This document shows, piece by piece, positions 23,815 to 34,600 of a stretch of DNA of 64,000 nt. The translations under genes were made by a program, and so were the position numbers. The notes under the pieces are model-generated. The model did no database searches. It was not told the DNA's origin and saw nothing but the letters and a program-made list of their open reading frames with translations. The DNA is from Pollutimonas nitritireducens (GTDB taxonomy: Bacteria > Pseudomonadota > Gammaproteobacteria > Burkholderiales > Burkholderiaceae_B), in the NCBI RefSeq assembly GCF_002849615.1, contig NZ_PDNV01000013.1, positions 62,001 through 126,000 on the forward strand, read 5' to 3'. Every line of letters begins with the position of its first letter. Position 1 is the stretch's first letter.

Positions 23815-24284
23815 AGCAGCCGCTACTTAGTAATAAACGGGCAAAAGATAAATGGATATCAGATAAACGACAACGACAACCTTCATTTTCTTTCTTCATT
23901 GGCTTCGTCGTCCGATATCCACATCTGCAAGGCGCCGGTGGCCGCTGCGGGCCAGGCGAAATTTGAGCGCGCCCTGCGGTCGGCCTGGATCGGGGATACA
24001 AGCCCGCGCTGTCCGAGCGGGACGCTTACGGACAGCCAGTGGCTGTCCGTTCCGCGAGTTCGCGGGCGCCCCGATCCGGGCCGACCGCAGGGTCTGCCCC
24101 GGCGAAGCACGGGGCCGCAGCGATATTGAGCAGGGTCCGCAGCGGCCACCGGCGCCGGATAAAGAACCGGAAAACGACAACTCCAGCGCCACTTAAGAGT
24201 CGAAATAGACGGCTTCATTAAAAATCGCCCCCAGCTTAAACCGCCGGCCAGCAACATTAAGCACCCGCCAAAATCACAAGATCC
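23815..24284. other. Gene-free spacer between the EamA gene and apt
   Basis: This 470-bp stretch contains AT-rich DNA next to the EamA start, a 226-bp GC-rich nested palindrome (23931-24156), and AT-rich DNA before the apt stop. Open frames on both strands across the palindrome are by-products of its composition and symmetry. Confidence 0.8.
23931..24156 (+). repeat. Nested palindromic element, copy 1
   Basis: The outer 20-bp arms (23931-23950 and 24137-24156) are perfectly complementary. Inside, 24-bp arms (23972-23995 and 24069-24092) pair with one mismatch. A 6-bp stem CCCGCG / CGCGGG (24003-24008, 24061-24066) follows, and inside it the conserved blocks CTGTCCGAGC (24009-24018) and GCGAGTT (24054-24060) bracket a perfect 11-bp hairpin (24028-24050). 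The blocks recur in the copies near 33 kb while the stems differ but stay paired. Function is unknown; it resembles a REP/BIME-type intergenic repeat, a small-element terminus or a structured RNA. Confidence 0.85.
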
Positions 24285-24830
24285 TTAATCCCCTTCGAAC
24301 GAGCAAACCGTATAAATATCCAACCCGGTTTCTTTCAGCGCCGTCGACCCGCCCAAATAAGGCAAATCGATAATCGCCGCCGCTTCCACCACATTCGCTC
24401 CAAGACGCTGCAGCAACTTCGACGCCGCCACCATCGTACCGCCGGTCGCGATCAAGTCATCGATCAGCAACACCCGCTGGCCAGGACGCACCGAATCCGT
24501 ATGCATTTCAACCGTGGCATTTCCATACTCCAGCGAATACTCTTCCGCCACCGTATCGAAAGGCAACTTTCCCTTCTTGCGCACCGGCACGAACCCCAAA
24601 TTCAGCTCATACGCCAGCACCGAACCCAGGATAAAGCCACGTGCATCCACCCCCGCAACCAGATCCAGGCGTTGCCGCATATACCGGTATACGAATAAAT
24701 CGATAAGTACCCGGAACGAACGCGGATCCTGGAGCACAGGCGTGATATCGCGAAAGGTTATGCCAGGCTTCGGCCAATTGGGAACGCTACGAATCGCTTT
24801 GCGAACGTGGTCGGCAGGATCAATATGCAT
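24285..24830 (-). CDS. apt: Adenine phosphoribosyltransferase
   Basis: Purine salvage enzyme that converts adenine and PRPP to AMP. The protein has 181 residues from ATG 24830, the usual length. The PRPP-binding motif is [14 protein letters not shown], and the adenine-side segments are [15 protein letters not shown] and [10 protein letters not shown]. An open frame extends to 24947, but the added residues have no family similarity. It is divergent from kdsD across about 220 bp. Confidence 0.96.
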
Positions 24831-25050
24831 GTGTTTTCGCCAAGACTGTAAAAACTGAAAAGAAGACAGCCCCCATTTTCGCATGCGCACCGGCATGCTG
24901 GAGCCAGCCATAACTATACGCGGCCCCTGCATCGTGGGATTCCACAATCTGCGCTTTTACAAATAAACCACATAAGCACGCGGTGCAAGTCACCCATGCC
25001 TCGCAATCATCGTCGGTACACAGCCATGGATGTACGTTTAAAATCACCGC

Positions 25051-26052
25051 ATGGATAAAACAACTACCACCGTAACGACCACCCCGACAGGCGAAACGTT
25101 GGCCTCCGCGCACCGCACTTTCGCCATCGAGATTGCCGCGCTGCAGGCGCTGGACGCCTCCCTGGACGACACATTCCGCCAGGCCGTCTCCATGCTGCTA
25201 GACTGCCAGGGCCGCGTCGTGGTCACCGGTATTGGAAAATCCGGGCATATTGCCCGCAAGATCGCCGCAACCCTGGCCTCCACCGGCACGCCCGCGTTCT
25301 TCATGCACGGCGCCGAAGCCGTCCATGGCGACCTGGGCATGCTCACCCGCCAGGACATCGTCCTGGCCATCTCCTATTCCGGCGCCGGCCAGGAACTGCT
25401 CACCGTCCTGTCCGTGGCCAAGCGTATGGGCGCGGCCATGATCTCCATCACCGGCTATCCCGAGTCCGAGCTCGCACGCAACGCCGACCTGCACCTGAAC
25501 GCCCACGTCGCACAAGAAGCCTGCCCCTTGAACCTGGCCCCCACGGCCAGCACCACCGCCGCCCTGGTGCTGGGCGACGCGCTCGCCGTCGCCTGCCTAG
25601 AGGCGCGCGGATTCAGTCGCGAAGACTTCGCGCGCTCCCACCCAGGCGGAGCACTCGGGCGGCGCCTGCTTACCTTCGTGCGCGATGTCATGCGCCAGGG
25701 CAGCGCACTGCCCATCGTGACAGTCGATACCAAGGTCCCCGACGCGCTGGTCGAAATGTCGGCCAAAGGCATGGGCATGACCATAGTCGTGGACGACAAG
25801 CAGGCACCGGTGGGAATTTTCACCGATGGTGACCTGCGCCGCCTGATTGCACGCCACGGCGACATCCGCCTGCTGACCGTAGCCGACGGCATGAGCCGCA
25901 ATCCGAAGAGCGTGCCGCCCGGAGCGCTGGCCATCGAGGCAGCCACGCTCATGGATGCGGGCCGCCTGAACCAGATGCTCGTGCTCGACGATACCGGGCT
26001 ATTATTAGGTGCTTTACATATGCATGACCTGCTCGCTGCCAAGGTCATCTAG
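25051..26052 (+). CDS. kdsD: Arabinose-5-phosphate isomerase KdsD (KpsF/GutQ family)
   Basis: Converts ribulose 5-phosphate to arabinose 5-phosphate, the first committed sugar for Kdo of LPS. The protein has 333 residues: an SIS domain (GIGKSGHIARKIAATLAS, ISYSGAGQELL) followed by two CBS domains (about 205-333; GIFTDGDLRRLI). It heads the gene set kdsD-kdsC-lptC-lptA-lptB, the same order as in E. coli. The ATG at 25051 begins the family N-terminus after a short variable segment. Confidence 0.96.
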   Translation: MDKTTTTVTTTPTGETLASAHRTFAIEIAALQALDASLDDTFRQAVSMLLDCQGRVVVTGIGKSGHIARKIAATLASTGTPAFFMHGAEAVHGDLGMLTRQDIVLAISYSGAGQELLTVLSVAKRMGAAMISITGYPESELARNADLHLNAHVAQEACPLNLAPTASTTAALVLGDALAVACLEARGFSREDFARSHPGGALGRRLLTFVRDVMRQGSALPIVTVDTKVPDALVEMSAKGMGMTIVVDDKQAPVGIFTDGDLRRLIARHGDIRLLTVADGMSRNPKSVPPGALAIEAATLMDAGRLNQMLVLDDTGLLLGALHMHDLLAAKVI

Positions 26053-26067
26053 AACCCGCGTGCCCAA

Positions 26068-26667
26068 ATGAACTTTCCCACCATTTCACATCCCGTCGAA
26101 GCACTCATCCTGGCCAAGATCGCGCCCGCGGTAATCGAGCGTGCGCGCCAGGTCCGCGTTATGGTCTTTGACGTCGACGGCGTACTGACCGACGGCTGCC
26201 TCTGGTATGGGGAACACGGTGAACTCATGAAGCGATTCAACGCCCTGGACGGCCATGGCCTGCGCCTGCTGCGGGAAAGCGGCATAACGGTCGCCCTGAT
26301 CACGGGCCGCGAAGGCCCAATACTGGCGCGTCGTGCCGCCGAGCTGGGCATAGCGCTGGTCCAGCAAGGCGTGCGCGACAAATCGCAGGCCGTTACAGCA
26401 CTTGCCCGCGAGCAAGGATGCTCCCTCAGCGAAGTGGGCTATATGGGTGACGACATCATCGACCTGCCGGCGCTGCAGCGCGTGGGGTTTGCCGCCAGCG
26501 TGCCGAACGCCCCCGCGTATATCTCACAGCTGGCGCACTGGATCTCTACCAAGCCGGGCGGGTCGGGCGCCGCGCGCGAATGCTGCGATGTCATCCTGGC
26601 CGCCCAGGGCCGCCTTGGCGCGTTCCTTAACCCCGGAGCCATGTTGATGAGTGGCGCCATCCAGTAA
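26068..26667 (+). CDS. kdsC: Kdo-8-phosphate phosphatase KdsC
   Basis: HAD-superfamily phosphatase that releases Kdo from Kdo 8-phosphate. The protein has 199 residues without a cap domain, typical of KdsC. The nucleophile motif is VFDVDGVLTDG, motif II lies in ALITGRE, and motif IV is YMGDDIIDLPAL. It is 15 bases after kdsD and five bases before lptC, so it is part of the same transcription unit. Confidence 0.96.
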   Translation: MNFPTISHPVEALILAKIAPAVIERARQVRVMVFDVDGVLTDGCLWYGEHGELMKRFNALDGHGLRLLRESGITVALITGREGPILARRAAELGIALVQQGVRDKSQAVTALAREQGCSLSEVGYMGDDIIDLPALQRVGFAASVPNAPAYISQLAHWISTKPGGSGAARECCDVILAAQGRLGAFLNPGAMLMSGAIQ

Positions 26668-26671
26668 GGCC

Positions 26672-27286
26672 ATGAAAGAACGCGCCCCCGCCCTTATTGC
26701 TGTTGGCTTGCTGATCGCCCTGGTGTTCGGCACCTTCTGGGCGGCCGACTATGCGCAACGGGCCATTGCCATCGACCCGCCGCGACGCATCACGCACGAA
26801 CCCGATTCCTGGGCCGACAATTTCATCATGATACGTACCGACCCGGGCGGCGTTGCCATCAACCGCATGGAAGGCACTTATATGCAACATTTTCCGGATA
26901 ACGACTCCTACGAGATCACTAATGCAAAAGCCATAGGACAGCAACCGAATTCGCCGATTACCATAGGCACGTCCGACAAAGCCGTCATGGATCAGAACGG
27001 CGAGCGCATCATCATGACGGGCAATGCTCATGTACACCGCATGCCGGGTGAAGACAGGGCCGCGATGGACGTCAAGAGCGAAGTCCTTACCATCAGGCCG
27101 GATGACAATATATTATTCACCGATCAACCGGCACTGGTAGTCAATGGCAATTCGACCATGAACGGCAAAGGAATGCATTACGATAACAATACCCGCCAGT
27201 TGCAAGTCTTTTCCGCGACCGACGTAAAAATATCCGGTCAAGATGCCCGGCCAGGCTCCTCCACCAAACCTGAGACGACAAAATAA
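26672..27286 (+). CDS. lptC: LPS export protein LptC
   Basis: Bitopic inner-membrane protein that passes LPS from the LptBFG transporter to LptA. The protein has 204 residues: one N-terminal transmembrane helix (about 8-25), then a periplasmic beta-jellyroll with repeated DxxA-type strands (NGERIIMTGNAHVHR, SEVLTIRPDDNILFT). Start choice: ATG 26672 is five bases after the kdsC stop; the in-frame GTG at 26651 lies inside kdsC. LptA begins five bases downstream. Confidence 0.93.
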   Translation: MKERAPALIAVGLLIALVFGTFWAADYAQRAIAIDPPRRITHEPDSWADNFIMIRTDPGGVAINRMEGTYMQHFPDNDSYEITNAKAIGQQPNSPITIGTSDKAVMDQNGERIIMTGNAHVHRMPGEDRAAMDVKSEVLTIRPDDNILFTDQPALVVNGNSTMNGKGMHYDNNTRQLQVFSATDVKISGQDARPGSSTKPETTK

Positions 27287-27291
27287 AAACC

Positions 27292-27942
27292 ATGAACCTT
27301 AAGCGACCTATTTCCTTTGCCGCCTGGCTGATCGCATTCGTGCTGGCGGGTGTTGCCGGCACGGCGCACGCCCAGGCGGCGGCTAAAGCGCCGTCCCAGC
27401 AGTCCACGCCCGCTGCGGGCGCATCGGCTACCCCGCCCGCCGAAGAACCCGATACTCTGATACTGTCGGATACCCTGAATTACGATGACATCAAGAAAGA
27501 AAGTGTCTTCACGGGCAACGTCATCATGACGCGCGGCCTCATGACCCTGCAGTCGGACAAGCTCACGATGCGCGAAGATGCGCAAGGCTTCCAGTTCGGC
27601 ACCGCCACCGTCGAACCGGGCAAGCTTGTATTCATACGCGAAGAAAACCCCGAGAAGTTCGAAGTCCTTGAAGCACGTGGCATACGCGCCGAATACGACG
27701 GCAAGAAAGAGCAGATCGAAATGATAGGCCAGGCCGTGGTCACGCGCTACATCTGCGGCAAGGCCTTCGACAACGTCAAGGGCGAGCGCGTCATCTACCA
27801 CCAGAACAGCGGCACCTACCAGGCCTACGGCGGCGCCAACTCCGCGGCCGCGGGCGGCAGGGTGCGCTCGATGGCCCGGCCCCAGGCCAAGGCCGACGCC
27901 GCTGCCGCGGAGTGCCGCGAAAAGTCGGCACCGCGCAAATAA
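27292..27942 (+). CDS. lptA: LPS transport periplasmic protein LptA
   Basis: Periplasmic bridge protein that carries LPS toward the outer membrane. The protein has 216 residues. The N-terminus is a signal peptide (cleavage expected near TAHAQA), followed by an Ala/Pro-rich linker. The OstA-like beta-jellyroll core includes [20 protein letters not shown] (split over two strands) and [17 protein letters not shown]. The tail after about residue 190 is Ala-rich and probably disordered. Confidence 0.93.
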
Positions 27943-28003
27943 TTACGCCGCTACGCAGTCCGCTTGCGCCCCGGTCTTACCTGCTATCAGAAAGTACCCG
28001 TTT

Positions 28004-28798
28004 ATGTTTTCTTCGAATAAGCCGGCCTCCGGCGGAACCCGCTCTCCCAGCGCCGCGGCCGGCAGCCTGCACGCCACGGGGCTGCGCAAGTCCTACGGCA
28101 AGCGTACCGTCGTGCACGACGTCTCGCTGTCGGTCGACAGCGGCGAAGTCGTAGGATTGCTCGGGCCCAACGGCGCGGGCAAAACCACCAGTTTCTACAT
28201 GATCGTGGGCATCATTCCCACCGATGCCGGGCGTATCGAAATCGACGGAAAACCTATTACCAGCATGCCCATGCACAAGCGGGCGCGCATGGGCTTGTCC
28301 TATCTGCCCCAAGACGCGTCGGTGTTCCGGCGGCTTACAGTCGAAGAAAACATCCGAGCCGTGCTCGAACTCCAGCTGGACGACGCGGGCAGGCCGCTGA
28401 CCTCCGCGGTCATCGGCGAACACCTCGAATCGCTCATCGACGAGTTGCAGATCGGTCATATCCGGCGCAATACCGCCATATCTCTATCGGGCGGCGAGCG
28501 GCGCCGGGTAGAGATCGCCCGTGCCCTGGCGACGCATCCACGCTTCATCCTTCTTGACGAACCCTTTGCTGGCGTGGACCCCATCGCCGTCATCGAAATC
28601 CAGCGCATCGTCCACTTTCTGAAGAGCCGAAATATCGGCGTGCTGATAACCGACCACAACGTCCGGGAAACCCTTGGAATTTGCGATCGCGCCTATATCA
28701 TCAGCGAAGGCAAGGTGCTGATCAACGGCCACCCCAATGAAATCATCGACAACGAGGCCGTACGCAAGGTTTACCTGGGCAAGAACTTCAAAATGTAG
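28004..28798 (+). CDS. lptB: LPS export ATPase LptB
   Basis: Cytoplasmic ABC ATPase that drives LPS extraction by LptFG. The protein has 264 residues. It carries Walker [14 protein letters not shown], the signature [15 protein letters not shown], Walker [14 protein letters not shown], and the switch histidine in [11 protein letters not shown]. The N-terminus has about 20 extra Ser/Gly-rich residues before the ABC fold. LptF and lptG are not nearby, as is usual. The expected next gene, rpoN, is missing; hpf follows after 151 bp. Confidence 0.96.
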
Positions 28799-28832
28799 GC
28801 GGACGCATCACCCCTCTGTTGATCTGGCGCAC

Positions 28833-28860
28833 TTGATTTACTCTGCATAATCTATACACT
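28833..28860 (+). promoter_or_regulatory. Predicted sigma-70 promoter for hpf
   Basis: The -35 TTGATT (28833-28838) and -10 TACACT (28855-28860) are 16 bases apart, in AT-rich DNA between lptB and hpf. This would let hpf be expressed apart from the lpt genes. Confidence 0.5.
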
Positions 28861-28949
28861 GAAATCATTAACAACGCATTACAAGGAGAACCATCACAAC
28901 CCTGAACGCGCATACCGCGCACCCCTCATTTCTGCAAGGAGATCACAAT

Positions 28950-29279
28950 ATGAACCTGAGTCTTACTGGCCGTCACCTAGAAGTCACTCCCGCTATACGC
29001 GAGTACGTATTGAACAAAATGGCACGCATCACGCGGCATTTTGACAGCGTTATCGACACCCAGGTCATTCTCTCGATCGAGCGTCTCAATCACACCGCCG
29101 AAATCACCATGCGCGTGCCTGGAAAAGACATCCACTGCGCTGCCGTCGACGAAAACCTCTATGCAGCCATCGACTTGCTTGCCGACAAAATAGACCGGCA
29201 GGTCATCAAGTATAAGTCCAAGGTGCAAGACCACGCTCACGAGCCTGTCAAGCGGCAAGAAATTCCTGCCGTGGAATAA
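28950..29279 (+). CDS. hpf: Ribosome hibernation-promoting factor HPF (short form)
   Basis: Small protein that binds the 30S decoding site and inactivates ribosomes in stationary phase. The protein has 109 residues, with the family N-terminus LSLTGRHLEVTPAIREYV and the helix YAAIDLLADKIDRQVIKYKSK. The long-form dimerisation tail is absent. A strong AAGGAG (28938-28943) precedes the ATG. A second AAGGAG 57 bases further upstream faces a continuous open frame with no standard start codon. In E. coli the equivalent gene follows rpoN. Confidence 0.95.
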   Translation: MNLSLTGRHLEVTPAIREYVLNKMARITRHFDSVIDTQVILSIERLNHTAEITMRVPGKDIHCAAVDENLYAAIDLLADKIDRQVIKYKSKVQDHAHEPVKRQEIPAVE

Positions 29280-29356
29280 TCCCACCCGGCTTTACGCGCG
29301 CCCTGGCCGGCCCTGCCGCGCCTACCCTGACTAGCGCCTCGTAAACCTGGCAAACT

Positions 29357-29385
29357 GGCCTCAATCGCCGCAAGTGATTGGGGCC
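29357..29385 (+). terminator. Terminator-like hairpin between hpf and ptsN
   Basis: A 10-bp stem GGCCTCAATC / GATTGGGGCC (one G-T wobble) with a 9-base loop, followed by a short T-rich stretch. It could reduce read-through from hpf into ptsN. Confidence 0.55.
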
Positions 29386-29399
29386 TTGGTTATCCTGCT

Positions 29400-29429
29400 T
29401 TGTATGGCGGCACCCAAACCCCATATAAT
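29400..29429 (+). promoter_or_regulatory. Predicted sigma-70 promoter ending at the ptsN start
   Basis: TTGTAT (29400-29405) and a perfect -10 TATAAT (29424-29429) with an 18-base spacer. The expected transcription start is near 29436-29437, the A of the ptsN ATG. Confidence 0.5.
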
Positions 29430-29436
29430 AACCCTC

Positions 29437-29916
29437 ATGAACTTAATGTCGCGTATCTTGCCGCTGTCGAACGTTGTGCTTGATTTGCCTGCCACCAGCA
29501 AGAAAAGAGCCTTCGAACAAGCCGGCCTGCTCTTCGAAAATCAACACGGAATAGCCCGCACGGCAGTTTTCCAAAGCCTTATTGCCCGCGAAAGGCTCGG
29601 CTCCACAGCGCTCGGCCATCACGTGGCAGTACCGCACGGCCGCATCAAGGACCTCAAAGAGCCTTGTGCCGCGTTTATTCGGCTGGCCGACCCGGTGCGC
29701 TTCGACGCCACCGACGGACGCCTGGCCAGCCTGTTGTTCATACTGCTGGTACCCGAAACGGCCACACAAACGCACCTAGACCTGCTGGCCGAGATCGCCA
29801 AGCTCATGTCCGACCCCAAGCTGCGGCAAACGCTGTCCACCGAAACCGATCCCGCCGCCGTCCACAGGCTTCTTACCACTTCGCCGCCTGAGGCCATCCA
29901 TGCTGACCATACATGA
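29437..29916 (+). CDS. ptsN: Nitrogen-PTS EIIA component PtsN
   Basis: Regulatory phosphoacceptor of the nitrogen phosphotransferase system, 159 residues from ATG 29437. The active-site histidine is His67 in GHHVAVPHGRIKDLKEP. The open frame extends to 29374, but those codons include the promoter-like sequence and have no family similarity. No Shine-Dalgarno sequence precedes the ATG. The 3' end overlaps hprK by 17 bases. In E. coli PtsN controls potassium transport, and it needs PtsP and NPr, which are not in the window. Confidence 0.95.
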   Translation: MNLMSRILPLSNVVLDLPATSKKRAFEQAGLLFENQHGIARTAVFQSLIARERLGSTALGHHVAVPHGRIKDLKEPCAAFIRLADPVRFDATDGRLASLLFILLVPETATQTHLDLLAEIAKLMSDPKLRQTLSTETDPAAVHRLLTTSPPEAIHADHT

Positions 29917-30829
29917 GCTCGTCAGTGACAACGCGGACAAGATCCCGTTCACCTGGATCGCCGGCGCCGATTCGGCCAACCGCCTCATACCCGACGTAGG
30001 CATGTCGGGCGCCGACCTGGTGGGTCACCTGAATCTCATCCACCCGGCGCGCATCCAGGTGTTCGGCGCGGAAGAACTCTCTTACTACACACGGTTCGAG
30101 ATCAAACGGCGCGTTCACCACCTGGAAGATCTCGTCACCGGCGGCGTGCCAGCCATACTCATAGCCGATGGCATGTCTCCGCCCGACGACCTGCGCGACT
30201 TCTGCAACCAGCAAAATATCCCCTTGCTGTCGACCACCATAGAAGCGGCCCAGCTCATCGATCTGCTGCGCATCTACCTGGGCAAGCGGCTGGCGCCGAA
30301 AACCACCGTGCATGGCGTGTTCATGGACGTACTGGGGGTGGGCGTGCTCATTACGGGCGAGTCCGGACTGGGAAAAAGCGAACTCGCCCTTGAACTGATT
30401 TCACGCGGCCACGGTCTGGTGGCCGACGACGCGGTCGAACTTTCGCGCACGGCGCCCAACATGATCGAGGGCCACTGCCCGCCTCTGTTGCAGAACCTGC
30501 TGGAAGTCCGCGGCCTGGGCCTGCTGGATATACGCACCATTTTCGGCGAAACATCAGTGCGCCGGAAAATGAAGCTCAATCTGTTGGTACACCTCATCCG
30601 CTCGACCCCCGATGCCTTCGAACGCCTGCCGGTCCAGGATCAAACCGAAGACATTCTGGGCATACCAATACGCCGCGTCATGCTGCAGGTGGCAGCCGGG
30701 CGCAATCTGGCCGTACTCGTCGAAGCCGCGGTGCGCAACACCATACTTGCCTTGCGCGGCATCGACACCATGGGCGAATTCATCGAGCGCCAGGCCCTGG
30801 CCATCATGGAAAGCAGTCGTCGCGAATAA
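29900..30829 (+). CDS. hprK: HPr kinase/phosphorylase
   Basis: Bifunctional enzyme that phosphorylates or dephosphorylates a serine of HPr. The protein has 309 residues: an N-terminal domain (about 1-130), then the kinase domain with Walker A GESGLGKSELALEL near 155 and the HprK signature EVRGLGLLDIRTIFG near 200. The start overlaps ptsN by 17 bases, so translation is probably coupled. In betaproteobacteria without carbohydrate PTS transporters, the pair HprK/PtsN is thought to serve regulation, not sugar uptake. Confidence 0.96.
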   Translation: MLTIHELVSDNADKIPFTWIAGADSANRLIPDVGMSGADLVGHLNLIHPARIQVFGAEELSYYTRFEIKRRVHHLEDLVTGGVPAILIADGMSPPDDLRDFCNQQNIPLLSTTIEAAQLIDLLRIYLGKRLAPKTTVHGVFMDVLGVGVLITGESGLGKSELALELISRGHGLVADDAVELSRTAPNMIEGHCPPLLQNLLEVRGLGLLDIRTIFGETSVRRKMKLNLLVHLIRSTPDAFERLPVQDQTEDILGIPIRRVMLQVAAGRNLAVLVEAAVRNTILALRGIDTMGEFIERQALAIMESSRRE

Positions 30830-30923
30830 ACCAGGCCCAGCCGCGTTGCGGCTTGCTTTATTCTTCAAATACCTGGGACGCAGACCACTCACTGCATCCT
30901 TCAACGTGGAACCCCCCATCGTC

Positions 30924-31796
30924 ATGTTGAACATCGTCCTGATCACAGGAATCTCCGGCTCCGGTAAATCGGTTGCACTGCGCTTGCTTGAAGACGCGGG
31001 CTACACCTGTGTCGACAACCTGCCCGTGCGGTTTCTGCACGATTTCATCGCCAGCACGCGCGAAAGCGGCCTGGAGCGTGTTGCCGTGTCCATCGATGTG
31101 CGTTCACCCGGCGAAATCAATGAGCTACCCGATGTGATCACCGGCCTACGGTCTATGGGAACCGCATTCCGGGTCATTTTCCTGGATGCCAACGACCACA
31201 CCCTGCAGCAGCGCTATTCCGAGTCGCGGCGCCGCCATCCCCTGACCAACCGGTTGCAGGCTGGCGGGAAATCGCCTTCCCTGCAAGAATGCATCGATAC
31301 CGAACGCGAAATGCTGGCGCCACTGCGCGAGCAGGAACACGTAATCGACACCTCTGACCTGACGCCCGGACAGCTGCGCGCCTGGGTACGCGACTTGGTC
31401 CAGGCCGACCGCGCGCCTGTCGTGCTGACCTTTGAATCGTTCGCCTACAAGCGCGGCGTGCCAGGCGACGCCGACTTGGTGTTCGATGTGCGGTGCCTGC
31501 CGAACCCTCATTACGACAGTGCCTTGCGCCCGTTGACCGGACGTGACGAACCCGTTGCCAAATGGCTGGGGCAATTCGGCAGCGTTGAAACCATGATTGA
31601 AGACATTGCCGGATTCATTCGGCGCTGGTTGCCACTTTATATGCAAGATACCCGCAACTACCTCACAGTGGCCATCGGTTGCACGGGCGGCAAGCACCGA
31701 TCAGTCTACGTCACCGAGCAGCTTGCCCAGCGCTTTGCCGATCATTCTCCCCTGCTGATCAGGCACCGCAACCAGCCGCCCCCCGATACGCCATGA
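30924..31796 (+). CDS. rapZ: RNase adapter protein RapZ
   Basis: P-loop protein that in enterobacteria presents the sRNA GlmZ to RNase E and so tunes glucosamine-6-phosphate synthesis. The protein has 290 residues from ATG 30924, the normal length. Walker A is GISGSGKSVALRLLED. C-terminal landmarks are FESFAYKRGVPGDADLVFDVR and the GCTGGKHRSVYVTEQL loop. A much longer frame opens at 30612, but it overlaps hprK and has no family similarity. The stop overlaps the rlpA start (ATGA). Confidence 0.95.
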   Translation: MLNIVLITGISGSGKSVALRLLEDAGYTCVDNLPVRFLHDFIASTRESGLERVAVSIDVRSPGEINELPDVITGLRSMGTAFRVIFLDANDHTLQQRYSESRRRHPLTNRLQAGGKSPSLQECIDTEREMLAPLREQEHVIDTSDLTPGQLRAWVRDLVQADRAPVVLTFESFAYKRGVPGDADLVFDVRCLPNPHYDSALRPLTGRDEPVAKWLGQFGSVETMIEDIAGFIRRWLPLYMQDTRNYLTVAIGCTGGKHRSVYVTEQLAQRFADHSPLLIRHRNQPPPDTP

Positions 31797-32908
31797 CATC
31801 ACCACGCTACCTGATCCCCCTTGCCCTATGCATCATTCTCGCCATACTTGCCGGCTGCTCCACGCCCAAGACTGGAACCAAGGTCGGCAGCAGCAGCGGC
31901 GCCACACGCGGTGGCGGCTACTACAAGGATGACGGACCCGGCTCGAACATCCCGCCCGGCATCGAGAACATCCCCGACGCCGTTCCCCAGGTCGAACCCC
32001 ATTCCCCGTCCAACTTCCGGCCTTATGTTGTATTTGGCAAAAAGTACGTTCCAGTCAGCGATGAAAAGCCCTTTCGCCAGGAAGGCACGGCATCCTGGTA
32101 CGGACGCAAGTTTCACGGCAAAAAAACCGCCAATGGCGAAACCTACGATATGTACGCCATGTCGGCAGCCCACCCGACATTGCCCATACCCAGCTATGCG
32201 CGCGTCACCCATGCCAAGACCGGGAATTCCGTGATTGTGCGCGTCAATGATCGAGGGCCGTTCCATAGCAGCCGCATCATCGATGTCTCCTACGTGGCGG
32301 CGGCCAAGCTGGGCCTGATAGGCCCCGGCAGCGGCCAGGTCATCGTCGAGGCCATTACCAACGACGATATACGGAATACGCGTATGGCCAGTGCACCGGC
32401 CGCGCCCCGGACGACACAGGTCAGCGTAGCGCAGCCTGTCGAGGCCCGAGAGGCACCGTCGAGGATCGCCGCAAACAAGCAGCCGCTGCCCGATGCGCTA
32501 GAGGTACTTCGGCTCAGCGAGGCTAAACCTGCAGCAGCTCAATCCACAAGCGCCCGACCTGGCGTAGCCCAACCTGACGCGCTGCAAGCGCTCCTGACCG
32601 ATGATCGGATCGGCCACATCTCCGCGGCCAGCACAGGCACTCAGGCCCAGATGGCGCAGTCCCCGTCCAGCCCAGGACAGATCTATCTTCAATTCGGCGC
32701 GTTCAGTGCCCCGCACACCGCCAATGGCCTGGCTCAGAAAATCAACCAGCAAATCAGCCATGTCGAAAGCCGACCGGCCAGGATACGCACTGCCAATGAA
32801 CTGTATAAAGTTCAGATAGGTCCTTATTCTTCGCGCACCGAGGCTGTGAATGCGGCCTTCCGCATCCGTGAAGTCACGGGCATGCAAGCCACGCTTGCCT
32901 TGAGCTAG
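31793..32908 (+). CDS. rlpA: Septal lipoprotein RlpA with DPBB and SPOR domains
   Basis: Outer-membrane lipoprotein that acts on septal peptidoglycan; relatives are lytic transglycosylases for denuded glycan strands. From ATG 31793 it has 371 residues: a signal peptide with lipobox LAGC (Cys near 22), a double-psi beta-barrel domain (about 95-185; GTASWYGRKFHGKKTANGE, VRVNDRGPF), a variable Ala/Pro/Gln linker, and a C-terminal SPOR domain (about 295-371; YLQFGAFSAPHTANGLAQKI, KVQIGPYSSRTEA). The SPOR domain should target it to division sites. It shares four bases with the end of rapZ and is the last gene of the plus-strand run. Confidence 0.95.
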   Translation: MTSPRYLIPLALCIILAILAGCSTPKTGTKVGSSSGATRGGGYYKDDGPGSNIPPGIENIPDAVPQVEPHSPSNFRPYVVFGKKYVPVSDEKPFRQEGTASWYGRKFHGKKTANGETYDMYAMSAAHPTLPIPSYARVTHAKTGNSVIVRVNDRGPFHSSRIIDVSYVAAAKLGLIGPGSGQVIVEAITNDDIRNTRMASAPAAPRTTQVSVAQPVEAREAPSRIAANKQPLPDALEVLRLSEAKPAAAQSTSARPGVAQPDALQALLTDDRIGHISAASTGTQAQMAQSPSSPGQIYLQFGAFSAPHTANGLAQKINQQISHVESRPARIRTANELYKVQIGPYSSRTEAVNAAFRIREVTGMQATLALS

Positions 32909-32945
32909 AAGTTTTTCGACGCTGCCCGGCTTCGATGACGTTGCC

Positions 32946-33123
32946 CGGGGTGGGTGGGGGCAGTCCGGCGGCGTGCTTGTTTCCGCGTCTGCCTCGTCCA
33001 GCCGGGCGTCGGCCGAACTCCCTGCGCTTCGCTCCGGTCAGACAACGGCCGACGACACCCCCCGGCTTCCCTTCGTCAGCCCGCGGCGCACGCCTACACG
33101 CCGCACTGCCCCCACCCACCCCG
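32946..33123 (-). repeat. Nested palindromic element, copy 2 (inverted)
   Basis: The outer arms are 32946-32964 and 33105-33123 (19 bp, perfect), extended by GCGGCGTG / CACGCCGC (32968-32975, 33097-33104). The inner stem GTCGGCCG / CGGCCGAC lies at 33008-33015 and 33046-33053. Read on the minus strand, the inner stem encloses TTGTCTGACC (33036-33045) and GAGTT (33016-33020), the same blocks in the same order as in copies 1 and 3. The stem sequence is unrelated to that of the other copies. Confidence 0.8.
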
Positions 33124-33330
33124 TACAACTGCGCAATAAGAAACTTGCCGGCCTTACACTGGCAAGCGCAGGCAATCCGTGGTGAAAAATTTCTGGCCGA
33201 GAGGGATGCAAATGGTCCTTGGCCAGGCCCACCGCGTTGATCGTACCGGTCTATCTCTAGAAGTGTGGAATCCGTGGTTGGCTTGGCGTACACGATGGTT
33301 AGCACGCTCGTCCAAGCCTCGCTCCTGCAA

Positions 33331-33556
33331 AAAGGTGGGTGTGTCGGGGACTGTGCAGGCGCCTCGCGCACGCCGTTTCGGTCAGTCCCATCGAGGAGGC
33401 AAGACCGCGGCTGTCTGAGCCCGGCGGGTGTCGGGCCACTGGCCCGACCGGGCGAGTTCCGCGGTCGCCTCGATGGGGCTGGCCGAAACGGGTACCCGTG
33501 GCAACGCCACGGGCGTAGCGCGTGAAGCCGAAACAGGCCGCGACACACCCGCCTTT
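33331..33556 (+). repeat. Nested palindromic element, copy 3
   Basis: The outer arms 33331-33346 and 33541-33556 pair at 15 of 16 positions. The next arms, CCGTTTCGG through ATCGAGG and its partner CCTCGAT through CCGAAACGG, pair with two mismatches. A CCGCGG / CCGCGG stem (33405-33410, 33459-33464) encloses CTGTCTGAGC (33411-33420), a perfect 9-bp hairpin (33430-33448) and GCGAGTT (33452-33458). A further 8-bp hairpin CCCGTGGC / GCCACGGG lies at 33495-33513. It is the same length as copy 1 (226 bp). Confidence 0.85.
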
Positions 33557-33561
33557 CTTAA

Positions 33562-33621
33562 GAACGAATAGCCGACCCAATGAACGAATAGCCGTCCCAA
33601 TGAACGAATAACCGTCCCCAA
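33562..33621 (+). repeat. 20-bp direct repeat, three tandem units
   Basis: Units GAACGAATAGCCGACCCAAT (33562-33581), the same with one change (33582-33601), and a third with three or more changes (33602-33621). They lie six bases beyond the right end of palindromic copy 3. Confidence 0.9.
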
Positions 33622-33667
33622 CGCCTCCGCGCTGCAGCGAGCCGCATAAGCACCTCGACCAAAAATC

Positions 33668-34600
33668 CTAGCCCGTCTTCTGACGCCCCAGCGCCAAAGC
33701 GTATAAAGTATCCCGCGGCATTCCCGTGACTTTGGCAGCCACCTTGGTCGCATCCCGCAATGACATGGTCTCCAGCAAAGCGTCCAGCAATACCAAGGCC
33801 GACGGATCGACATCTTCCGTAGCCCGGGCGTTGTCGGCTTCATGCACGATCAGCACAAATTCCCCCTGGCTGCGATGGGCATCCCCGGCCAGCCACGCCG
33901 CCGCATCGGCCAGCGGCATGGTGACCACCTGCTCGAAGCGCTTGGTCAATTCGCGCGCGATTGTCAATTTGCGCAAAGGCCCGCAAACCTGCAGCATGTC
34001 CTTCACGGCAGCGGCCAGTCGATGGGGCGATTCGAACATCACGATAGGCGCTGGCACGGCGCACCAGCGCTGCAACCACTTCTGGCGGGCACCGGCCTTG
34101 GGCGGCATGAAACCGGCAAACACATAGGCCGGATTCTCGTCCGACGTAACGCCGCTGGCCATCAGCGCCGCAATGACCGCGCTGGCGCCTGGAATGGCAA
34201 TCACGCCATAACCCGCCTCGCGTGCGGCGCGCACGATGCGGGCTCCCGGGTCGCTGACTGCCGGAGCCCCCGCATCTGACACCAGCGCCACCCGTTCCCC
34301 GCGCGACAAACGATCGACGATCGCCTGAGCCGCCTCGGCTTCGTTATGCCGATGTGCCGCAATCAGAGGCGTGCTGACGCCCCAGGCATCCATCAGCGGC
34401 CGGCTTGCGCGCGTGTCTTCGGCGGCGATCACGTCACAGCGGGCCAGCGTCTGCCAGGCCCGCAAACTGAGATCGCCCAGGTTTCCTATGGGCGTTGCCA
34501 CGACATAGAGCGTGGCGGCGGGCCAGTGCTGCGCGTCCACCCGTTCGGTGAGACGTTTCCATGTCGTAGGCGTATCTGAAAAATCGGGTGTTTCACTCAT
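33668..34600 (-). CDS. rsmI: 16S rRNA (cytidine1402-2'-O)-methyltransferase RsmI
   Basis: Methylates the ribose of C1402 in the ribosomal P site. The protein has 310 residues from ATG 34600, somewhat longer than the E. coli enzyme because of about 25 N-terminal residues. Tetrapyrrole methylase-fold landmarks are LYVVATPIGNLGDLSLRA, AAEDTRASRPLM, VSDAGAPAVSDPG and IPGASAVIAALMASG. The frame remains open to 34840, but that part lies antisense to yraN. It is divergent from yraN across only 33 bp. Confidence 0.95.
   Translation of the reverse strand: MSETPDFSDTPTTWKRLTERVDAQHWPAATLYVVATPIGNLGDLSLRAWQTLARCDVIAAEDTRASRPLMDAWGVSTPLIAAHRHNEAEAAQAIVDRLSRGERVALVSDAGAPAVSDPGARIVRAAREAGYGVIAIPGASAVIAALMASGVTSDENPAYVFAGFMPPKAGARQKWLQRWCAVPAPIVMFESPHRLAAAVKDMLQVCGPLRKLTIARELTKRFEQVVTMPLADAAAWLAGDAHRSQGEFVLIVHEADNARATEDVDPSALVLLDALLETMSLRDATKVAAKVTGMPRDTLYALALGRQKTG

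Follow-up and report, generated by a model that had tools for sequence, protein, structure and literature searches.

The window analysed here, a 64,000-nucleotide (nt) stretch of Pollutimonas nitritireducens (contig NZ_PDNV01000013.1, positions 62,001 to 126,000), carries three palindromic sequences that belong to a family of dispersed structured repeats (Table 1). An original prediction from the letters alone had described three copies with named stems, and all three were located with those stems in place. Each folds far more stably as RNA than its dinucleotide shuffles, with z scores of -10.9, -7.2 and -11.1 for copies 1, 2 and 3, respectively (0 of 200 shuffles in each case). The loose pattern TGTCYGANC...GAGTT occurs in the window exactly three times, at these copies, against 0.06 occurrences expected, and none of 100 shuffles contained three. 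Copies 1 and 3 share one plan: an outer stem, a 24-bp inner stem, an NRCAAG bulge, the short stem P3, an internal loop with TGTYYGA opposite GAGTT, apical and side hairpins and a 3' tail. The arm pairs ATCGGGG/CCCCGAT and ATCGAGG/CCTCGAT are the inner ends of the same 24-bp stem in copies 1 and 3.

Table 1. Repeat copies, their parts and adjoining features in the window
Feature	Coordinates	Strand	Remarks
Copy 1	23931..24156 (23931-24167 with tail)	+	Complete stand-alone element with outer and 24-bp stems, internal loop, apical and side hairpins
Copy 1 outer stem	5' arm 23931..23950, pairs with 24137-24156	+	
Copy 1 24-bp stem (P2)	5' arm 23972..23995, pairs with 24069-24092	+	Family covariation
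Copy 1 conserved bulge	23996..24002	+	ATACAAG (family NRCAAG)
Copy 1 P3 stem	24003..24066	+	CCCGCG 24003-24008 / CGCGGG 24061-24066
Inside copy 1 P3	24010-24016; 24029-24049; 24056-24060	+	TGTCCGA; apical hairpin; GAGTT
Copy 1 side hairpin (P6)	24096..24115	+	GCCCCGGCGAAGCACGGGGC
Copy 1 3' tail	24159..24167	+	ATAAAGAAC (family YTYAAGAAC)
Copy 2	32940..33129	-	Weak member; repeated in this genome, G001 and G002
Copy 2 stem	33046-33053 / 33008-33015	-	GTCGGCCG / CGGCCGAC
Copy 2 blocks	33038-33044; 33016-33020	-	TGTCTGA; GAGTT
MITE-like carrier of copies 2 and 3	32905..33671		CTAG, degenerate terminal inverted repeats AAGTTTTTCG / CGACCAAAAATC, CTAG
Copy 3	33331..33556 (33331-33565 with tail)	+	Full element
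Copy 3 24-bp stem	33373-33396 / 33468-33491	+	
Inside copy 3 24-bp stem	33397-33403; 33412-33418; 33454-33458	+	AGGCAAG; TGTCTGA; GAGTT
Copy 3 CCGCGG stem	33405-33410 / 33459-33464	+	
Copy 3 side hairpin	33494..33514	+	ACCCGTGGCAACGCCACGGGC
Copy 3 3' tail	33557..33565	+	CTTAAGAAC
Three 20-bp tandem units	33562..33621	+	Begin GAACGAATARCCGNCCC, from copy 3 tail; the orthologous copy in G001 has a single unit

We built a covariance model (R1) of 24 copies, with 174 positions and 52 pairs. Copy 1, itself among these sequences, scores 173 bits, and copy 3 scores 121.5 bits with a near-identical paralogue (L039) in the model. Elsewhere in the source genome, contigs C2 and C38 hold paralogues of copy 3 at 100% and 96% identity. 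The model misses copy 2 at default settings and aligns it at the right place with filters off (13.5 bits; E = 0.0067 for 1.5 kb). Copy 2 is repeated within the source genome (G000) and in G001 and G002; many of the relatives in G002 read TGTTTGAGCGCAGCGAGTT on the minus strand and are nearer the consensus than the copy in the window. Copies 1 and 3 are full members of the proposed three-copy family, whereas copy 2 is not an equal member but a reduced, weak one. Rfam 15 yielded no match above gathering score in the whole window, and 10 loci searched at E up to 5 gave a single chance match (HOTTIP_3, 17.2 bits against a cut-off of 50).

The covariance-model search proposed for the family returned many further copies with compensated stems, both in the source and in other genomes, and the prediction thereby withstood the refutation test set with it. 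With up to 27 candidates scored per genome, R1 matches are present in 37 of 101 genomes, source included, and are spread over 29 of 83 genera; the single-contig genomes G044, G022, G006 and G005 hold 36, 32, 24 and 60, respectively. A blastn search with copy 1 (up to five candidates scored per genome) found matches in 20 of 150 genomes, again including the source. Among the matches listed, named records with the motif are mostly Alcaligenaceae, and their genera include Pusillimonas, Pollutimonas, Parapusillimonas, Pigmentiphaga, Castellaniella and Eoetvoesiella. Weaker model matches occur in Vogesella, in beta proteobacterium L13, in contigs of one Neisseriaceae metagenome-assembled genome (MAG) and in an Ectothiorhodospiraceae MAG. 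A class-wide scan, insensitive at seven candidates scored per genome, detected the family in only G000 and one other of 369 genomes, and blastn of plasmids with copy 1 and a composite query gave no match. We rejected 14 viral-contig pattern matches, none with a model match at E up to 0.1, and five non-viral ones unsupported by the model (L187, L249, L251, L256 and L257). The literature matches listed for the motif, for repeats of Pusillimonas or Bordetella and for REPINs of Betaproteobacteria included no account of the family. The sequences are a dispersed structured-repeat family of about 220 nt, present in up to tens of copies in Alcaligenaceae and some relatives. Separately, the Neisseriales core-motif loci L198, L244 and L290 (also L229) seemingly have common neighbouring open reading frames (ORFs), read by eye as rdgB-like and others, hinting at a position kept for a long time.

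The covarying helices and conserved unpaired blocks of the original prediction hold across the family. In the 24-sequence alignment, a plain MAFFT alignment on which the structure itself was drawn, 94.8% of cells are paired and 44 of 52 pairs have changed on both sides. The corresponding values are 95.2% and 50 of 52 in an alignment of 109 distinct rows, which was made to the model and so leans towards it. None of 500 shuffles reaches any of five measures in either alignment; these shuffles ignore relatedness, while slid controls, which retain it, are 35 to 45% paired against about 95% for the true pairs. The unpaired, asymmetric blocks RCAAG, TGTYYGA and GAGTT are among the most conserved parts of the family and remain unpaired; the 3' tail YTYAAGAAC is also conserved. 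A folded shape is kept by evolution while most of its letters change.

Matching stems could also arise if template switching from arm to arm corrected palindromes with no selection on the fold. Both arms do change together even between near-identical G044 copies, which exchange blocks of stem and entire apical hairpins, alongside a few changes without compensation. At one orthologous copy with aligned flanking genes (G000:C6 and G001:C26), both arms of the long stem carry a replaced segment and the loops are kept. Such correction may speed stem change, but it does not account for the asymmetric loops, which are conserved and stay unpaired. G-U and A-C cells are, moreover, unequal in the long stem (87 versus 14 in 58 non-redundant rows), and we consider this explanation very unlikely.

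One particular strand seems to be the folded one. In addition to the G-U excess in the long stem, the model strand folds better than its complement in 71 of 72 distinct elements under DNA parameters and in 68 of 72 under RNA parameters, a preference that random genomic stretches lack (29 of 72). These counts and folding energies fit RNA and single-stranded DNA alike.

Among neighbours less than 1.5 kb apart in the four single-contig genomes, 24 of 26 pairs are head to head, with tails outward, two are direct and none is tail to tail; these counts rest on 150 of 152 matches, all those listed (two G044 matches are left out). Of the listed copies, 98 of 150 have no listed partner within 1.5 kb, including all 34 from G044. 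Fetched loci gave 19 of 22 pairs head to head, a count in which one head-to-head locus appears twice (L123 = L255), three (L124, L125 and L126) are shared with the 26 above, and the exceptions include an antisense shadow match (L130) and a weak match (L141). Partners are mostly diverged (median identity 0.605 versus a background of 0.57; exceptions at 0.89, 0.84 and 0.71), and most pairs are therefore not fresh inverted duplications. The 1-kb spacer of one pair, in G024, holds what reads as an ordinary nitroreductase-like gene.

The orientation of single copies tends to follow replication. With fork direction taken from sampled GC skew, 69 of 94 singles in G044, G022 and G005 have the model strand in the nascent-lagging sense and 25 in the other (combined p = 6e-6; the four singles of G006 were left unscored). 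The ratios per genome are 26:8 in G044, 20:4 in G022 and 23:13 in G005. G022 begins with a gene that we read as dnaA-like, and placing the origin there gives a hand count of 19:5. Gaps between convergent genes are enriched, holding 39 of 83 singles compared with 57 of 413 background gaps, and orientation relative to codirectional flanking genes shows no preference (18 versus 16). Genes were called with a GC-by-codon-position heuristic; some loci overlap, five groups lie within a called gene, and the gap counts exclude any group with no gene called on one of its sides.

These results bear on whether the family is a structured noncoding RNA that multiplied in genomes while serving the host, for example in termination, 3'-end processing or the sequestration of a protein. 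Covariation, conserved unpaired blocks, tolerance of G-U over A-C in the long stem and the better RNA folding of the model strand would all suit such an RNA. Against it stand an orientation that follows replication and shows no preference among codirectional genes, the very few G-U pairs in the inner helices, the tens of copies, presence or absence at a site and the Rfam results. We regard a host RNA as unlikely, although it is the likeliest of the rival explanations.

AAGAAC lies within 100 nt downstream of 68 of 151 distinct copies and upstream of three of 151, in a set that over-represents the source genus. Tandem repeats exceed 30 plain shuffles clearly in 12 of 37 downstream flanks (one of the 37 is mostly N) and in 6 of 37 upstream flanks, and several downstream arrays begin right at the tail. 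Arrays with units of roughly 10 to 45 bp adjoin element ends in the window and at L139 and L167-L177; units are alike within a locus and differ between loci, and they probably reflect slippage beside a strong hairpin. Most of 17 aligned G044 copies have in common the element with its tail and about 20 nt on the upstream side. Two of the G044 copies (L345 and L346) also share about 45 bp past the tail and differ on their 5' sides, as if some 3' flank had been carried along with the element.

Copies 2 and 3 also lie within a unit that has the terminal inverted repeats (TIRs) and short flanking duplication (CTAG) of a miniature inverted-repeat transposable element (MITE). Like ends with CTAG, clearer than those in the window, occur at G001:C4 and G001:C61; at G001:C7 the flanks of the unit are unequal, and for several G002 copies a single end is visible in the stretch read. 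Presence and absence differ at the orthologous site between the rlpA-like gene and rsmI, which holds copies 2 and 3 in the window and copy 3 alone in G001; no match to either copy was found there in G002, G003 or G004. The sequence of copy 3 is listed 38 times in G002, and by hand count every occurrence adjoins a copy 2, complete or partial. Bounded by TIRs and CTAG in several of its copies, this unit of the genus behaves as a MITE-like carrier that could move copies 2 and 3. A second arrangement in the source genome, G000:C11 (L316:1850-10660), consists of two elements in opposite orientation that bracket about 8.3 kb of metabolic genes. No recombinase was found among five proteins scanned in this stretch, and the two genes outside it lie next to each other in G003 and are separated by about 7.7 kb in G004.

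Carriers of this kind raise the prospect that the palindromes are passenger DNA moved only by larger units, namely TIR elements in Pollutimonas-like genomes and GTAG repeats in G036. The TIRs and CTAG that bound the unit holding copies 2 and 3 fit this explanation, as do the G036 copies (L103-L122), beside which GTAG-type repeats (TGTAGCGGCA and CCTTGTGG) stand downstream in seven of seven and upstream in six of seven aligned copies, a reading made by eye on seven of 20 fetched regions. Most G044 copies, however, have little in common beyond the element, and the 29 genera with matches have differing flanks. As a full account of the family, passage within carriers is quite unlikely.

We searched for a mover in 31 genomes, 15 carriers and 16 noncarriers as scored by R1. 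PF01797 (Y1_Tnp), the domain of the REP-associated tyrosine transposase (RAYT) that acts on repetitive extragenic palindromic (REP) sequences, is present in four of the 15 carriers and four of the 16 noncarriers; G000, G044 and, despite its GTAG-type repeats, G036 are among the 11 carriers that lack it. The Y2 transposase of IS91-type elements (PF04986) occurs in two of 15 and two of 16, and reverse transcriptase (PF00078) in 10 of 15 (one below the cut-off) and five of 16, with carriers G001, G004, G006, G020 and G029 lacking the latter. None of these three is a general mover of the family. ORF clustering over 119 loci, with the 40 largest clusters read by eye, revealed no common transposase; the clusters consisted largely of ordinary genes and of spurious ORFs in the element. 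Mobilization by a RAYT, one option of the original prediction, is accordingly not borne out. A classical REPIN or bacterial interspersed mosaic element (BIME) driven by RAYT (TnpA-REP) would share the pairing of palindromes in a fixed inverted order and their frequent position between convergent genes. The distribution of PF01797, the much greater length of the element and the lack of GTAG at its own ends by eye, these being the long stem and YTYAAGAAC (the GTAG-type repeats of G036 lie farther out), make it extremely improbable. The RAYT reading is largely refuted for most carrier genomes, although it could return with a RAYT too diverged for PF01797 to match.

Several known systems resemble the family in part. 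REPINs are inverted pairs of REP palindromes. REPINs and BIMEs are interspersed palindromes with many copies per genome in inverted order (PMC3116915, PMC2817692). The family is like them in its dispersal, its copy number and, where copies lie close together, their mostly inverted order, but it measures about 220 nt where REPs measure 20 to 40 bp, and it has a three-way junction and a large internal loop, in addition to lacking terminal GTAG and, in most carriers tested, RAYT. CGTC-tagged REPs are dispersed palindromes of 20 to 40 bp with no dedicated transposase known (PMC3733652). They share with the family dispersal and the lack of a known dedicated transposase but are short, and we did not notice a CGTC tag at the family ends, for which no systematic search was made. 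The Bordetella repeats Bor-1 and Bor-2 are intergenic repeats of 93 to 167 bp with RNAz-predicted structure in Alcaligenaceae (PMC2267715). By description they too are intergenic structured repeats of Alcaligenaceae and may be relatives of the family.

The ends of IS200/IS605 elements form a folded strand with asymmetric signals. The family resembles them in its folded strand, its asymmetric signals and its link to replication, but 11 of the 15 carrier genomes have no Y1 transposase. IS608 and ISDra2 are reported to target the lagging-strand template (PMC6006769), unlike the family, in which the leading-strand template more often bears the model strand. The CTAG-flanked, TIR-bounded carrier of copies 2 and 3 resembles a MITE, in contrast to stand-alone copies, for which neither TIRs nor target duplications were seen by eye in G044 or in the flanks of copy 1. 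Overall, the family resembles a REPIN or a nonautonomous single-strand element but lacks tested defining features of RAYT-driven REPs.

We favor, at somewhat better than even confidence, the interpretation that the family consists of nonautonomous mobile palindromes recognized as a folded single strand, with a REPIN-like geometry but far longer. The functional object would be one strand, presumably of DNA rather than RNA, folded into a long outer stem, a three-way junction with the side hairpin and the 24-bp stem. It would bear an asymmetric internal loop, formed by the NRCAAG bulge and TGTYYGA opposite GAGTT with possible tandem G-A pairs, and end in the 3' tail YTYAAGAAC. A trans-acting enzyme would recognize the loops and tail of this strand at or near replication forks and insert copies either alone or in head-to-head pairs whose tails face outward; any change in the stems would be tolerated provided that pairing holds. 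More tentatively, and as a possibility that we would not call probable, the family may be a replication-coupled mobile hairpin of Burkholderiales, with related cores in Neisseriales. Here, a 220-nt DNA strand, obliged to fold into a three-way junction, would be copied alone or in tail-out pairs into the nascent lagging strand, by a new enzyme or by host factors alone.

Several points weigh against the favored interpretation of nonautonomous mobile palindromes. The inner helices show no G-U excess (11 G-U versus 22 A-C cells in the 58 non-redundant rows), and the fixed purine-rich loops may supply much of the strand energy difference as a constant offset. The strand bias is not significant in G005 alone (23 of 36; p = 0.13), the GC skew of G022 is weak, and the bias could reflect survival of insertions rather than insertion itself. 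At least five of the 17 aligned G044 copies also have upstream tandem units of 25 to 32 nt in common, and the elements found within larger repeated units in G002, G036 and the window suggest that some copies may be passengers. No mobilizing enzyme was found among the three families tested and the ORFs skimmed near copies, and stand-alone copies yielded neither a target duplication nor an exact empty site.

If the favored interpretation is right, many Alcaligenaceae genomes would harbor a structured repeat family that combines strong covariation with signs of folded single-stranded DNA. A protein binding the TGTYYGA/GAGTT loop would become an obvious thing to search for, and the family would provide a natural test of how replication orients repeats. 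It would also caution against taking strong covariation as proof of a functional RNA.

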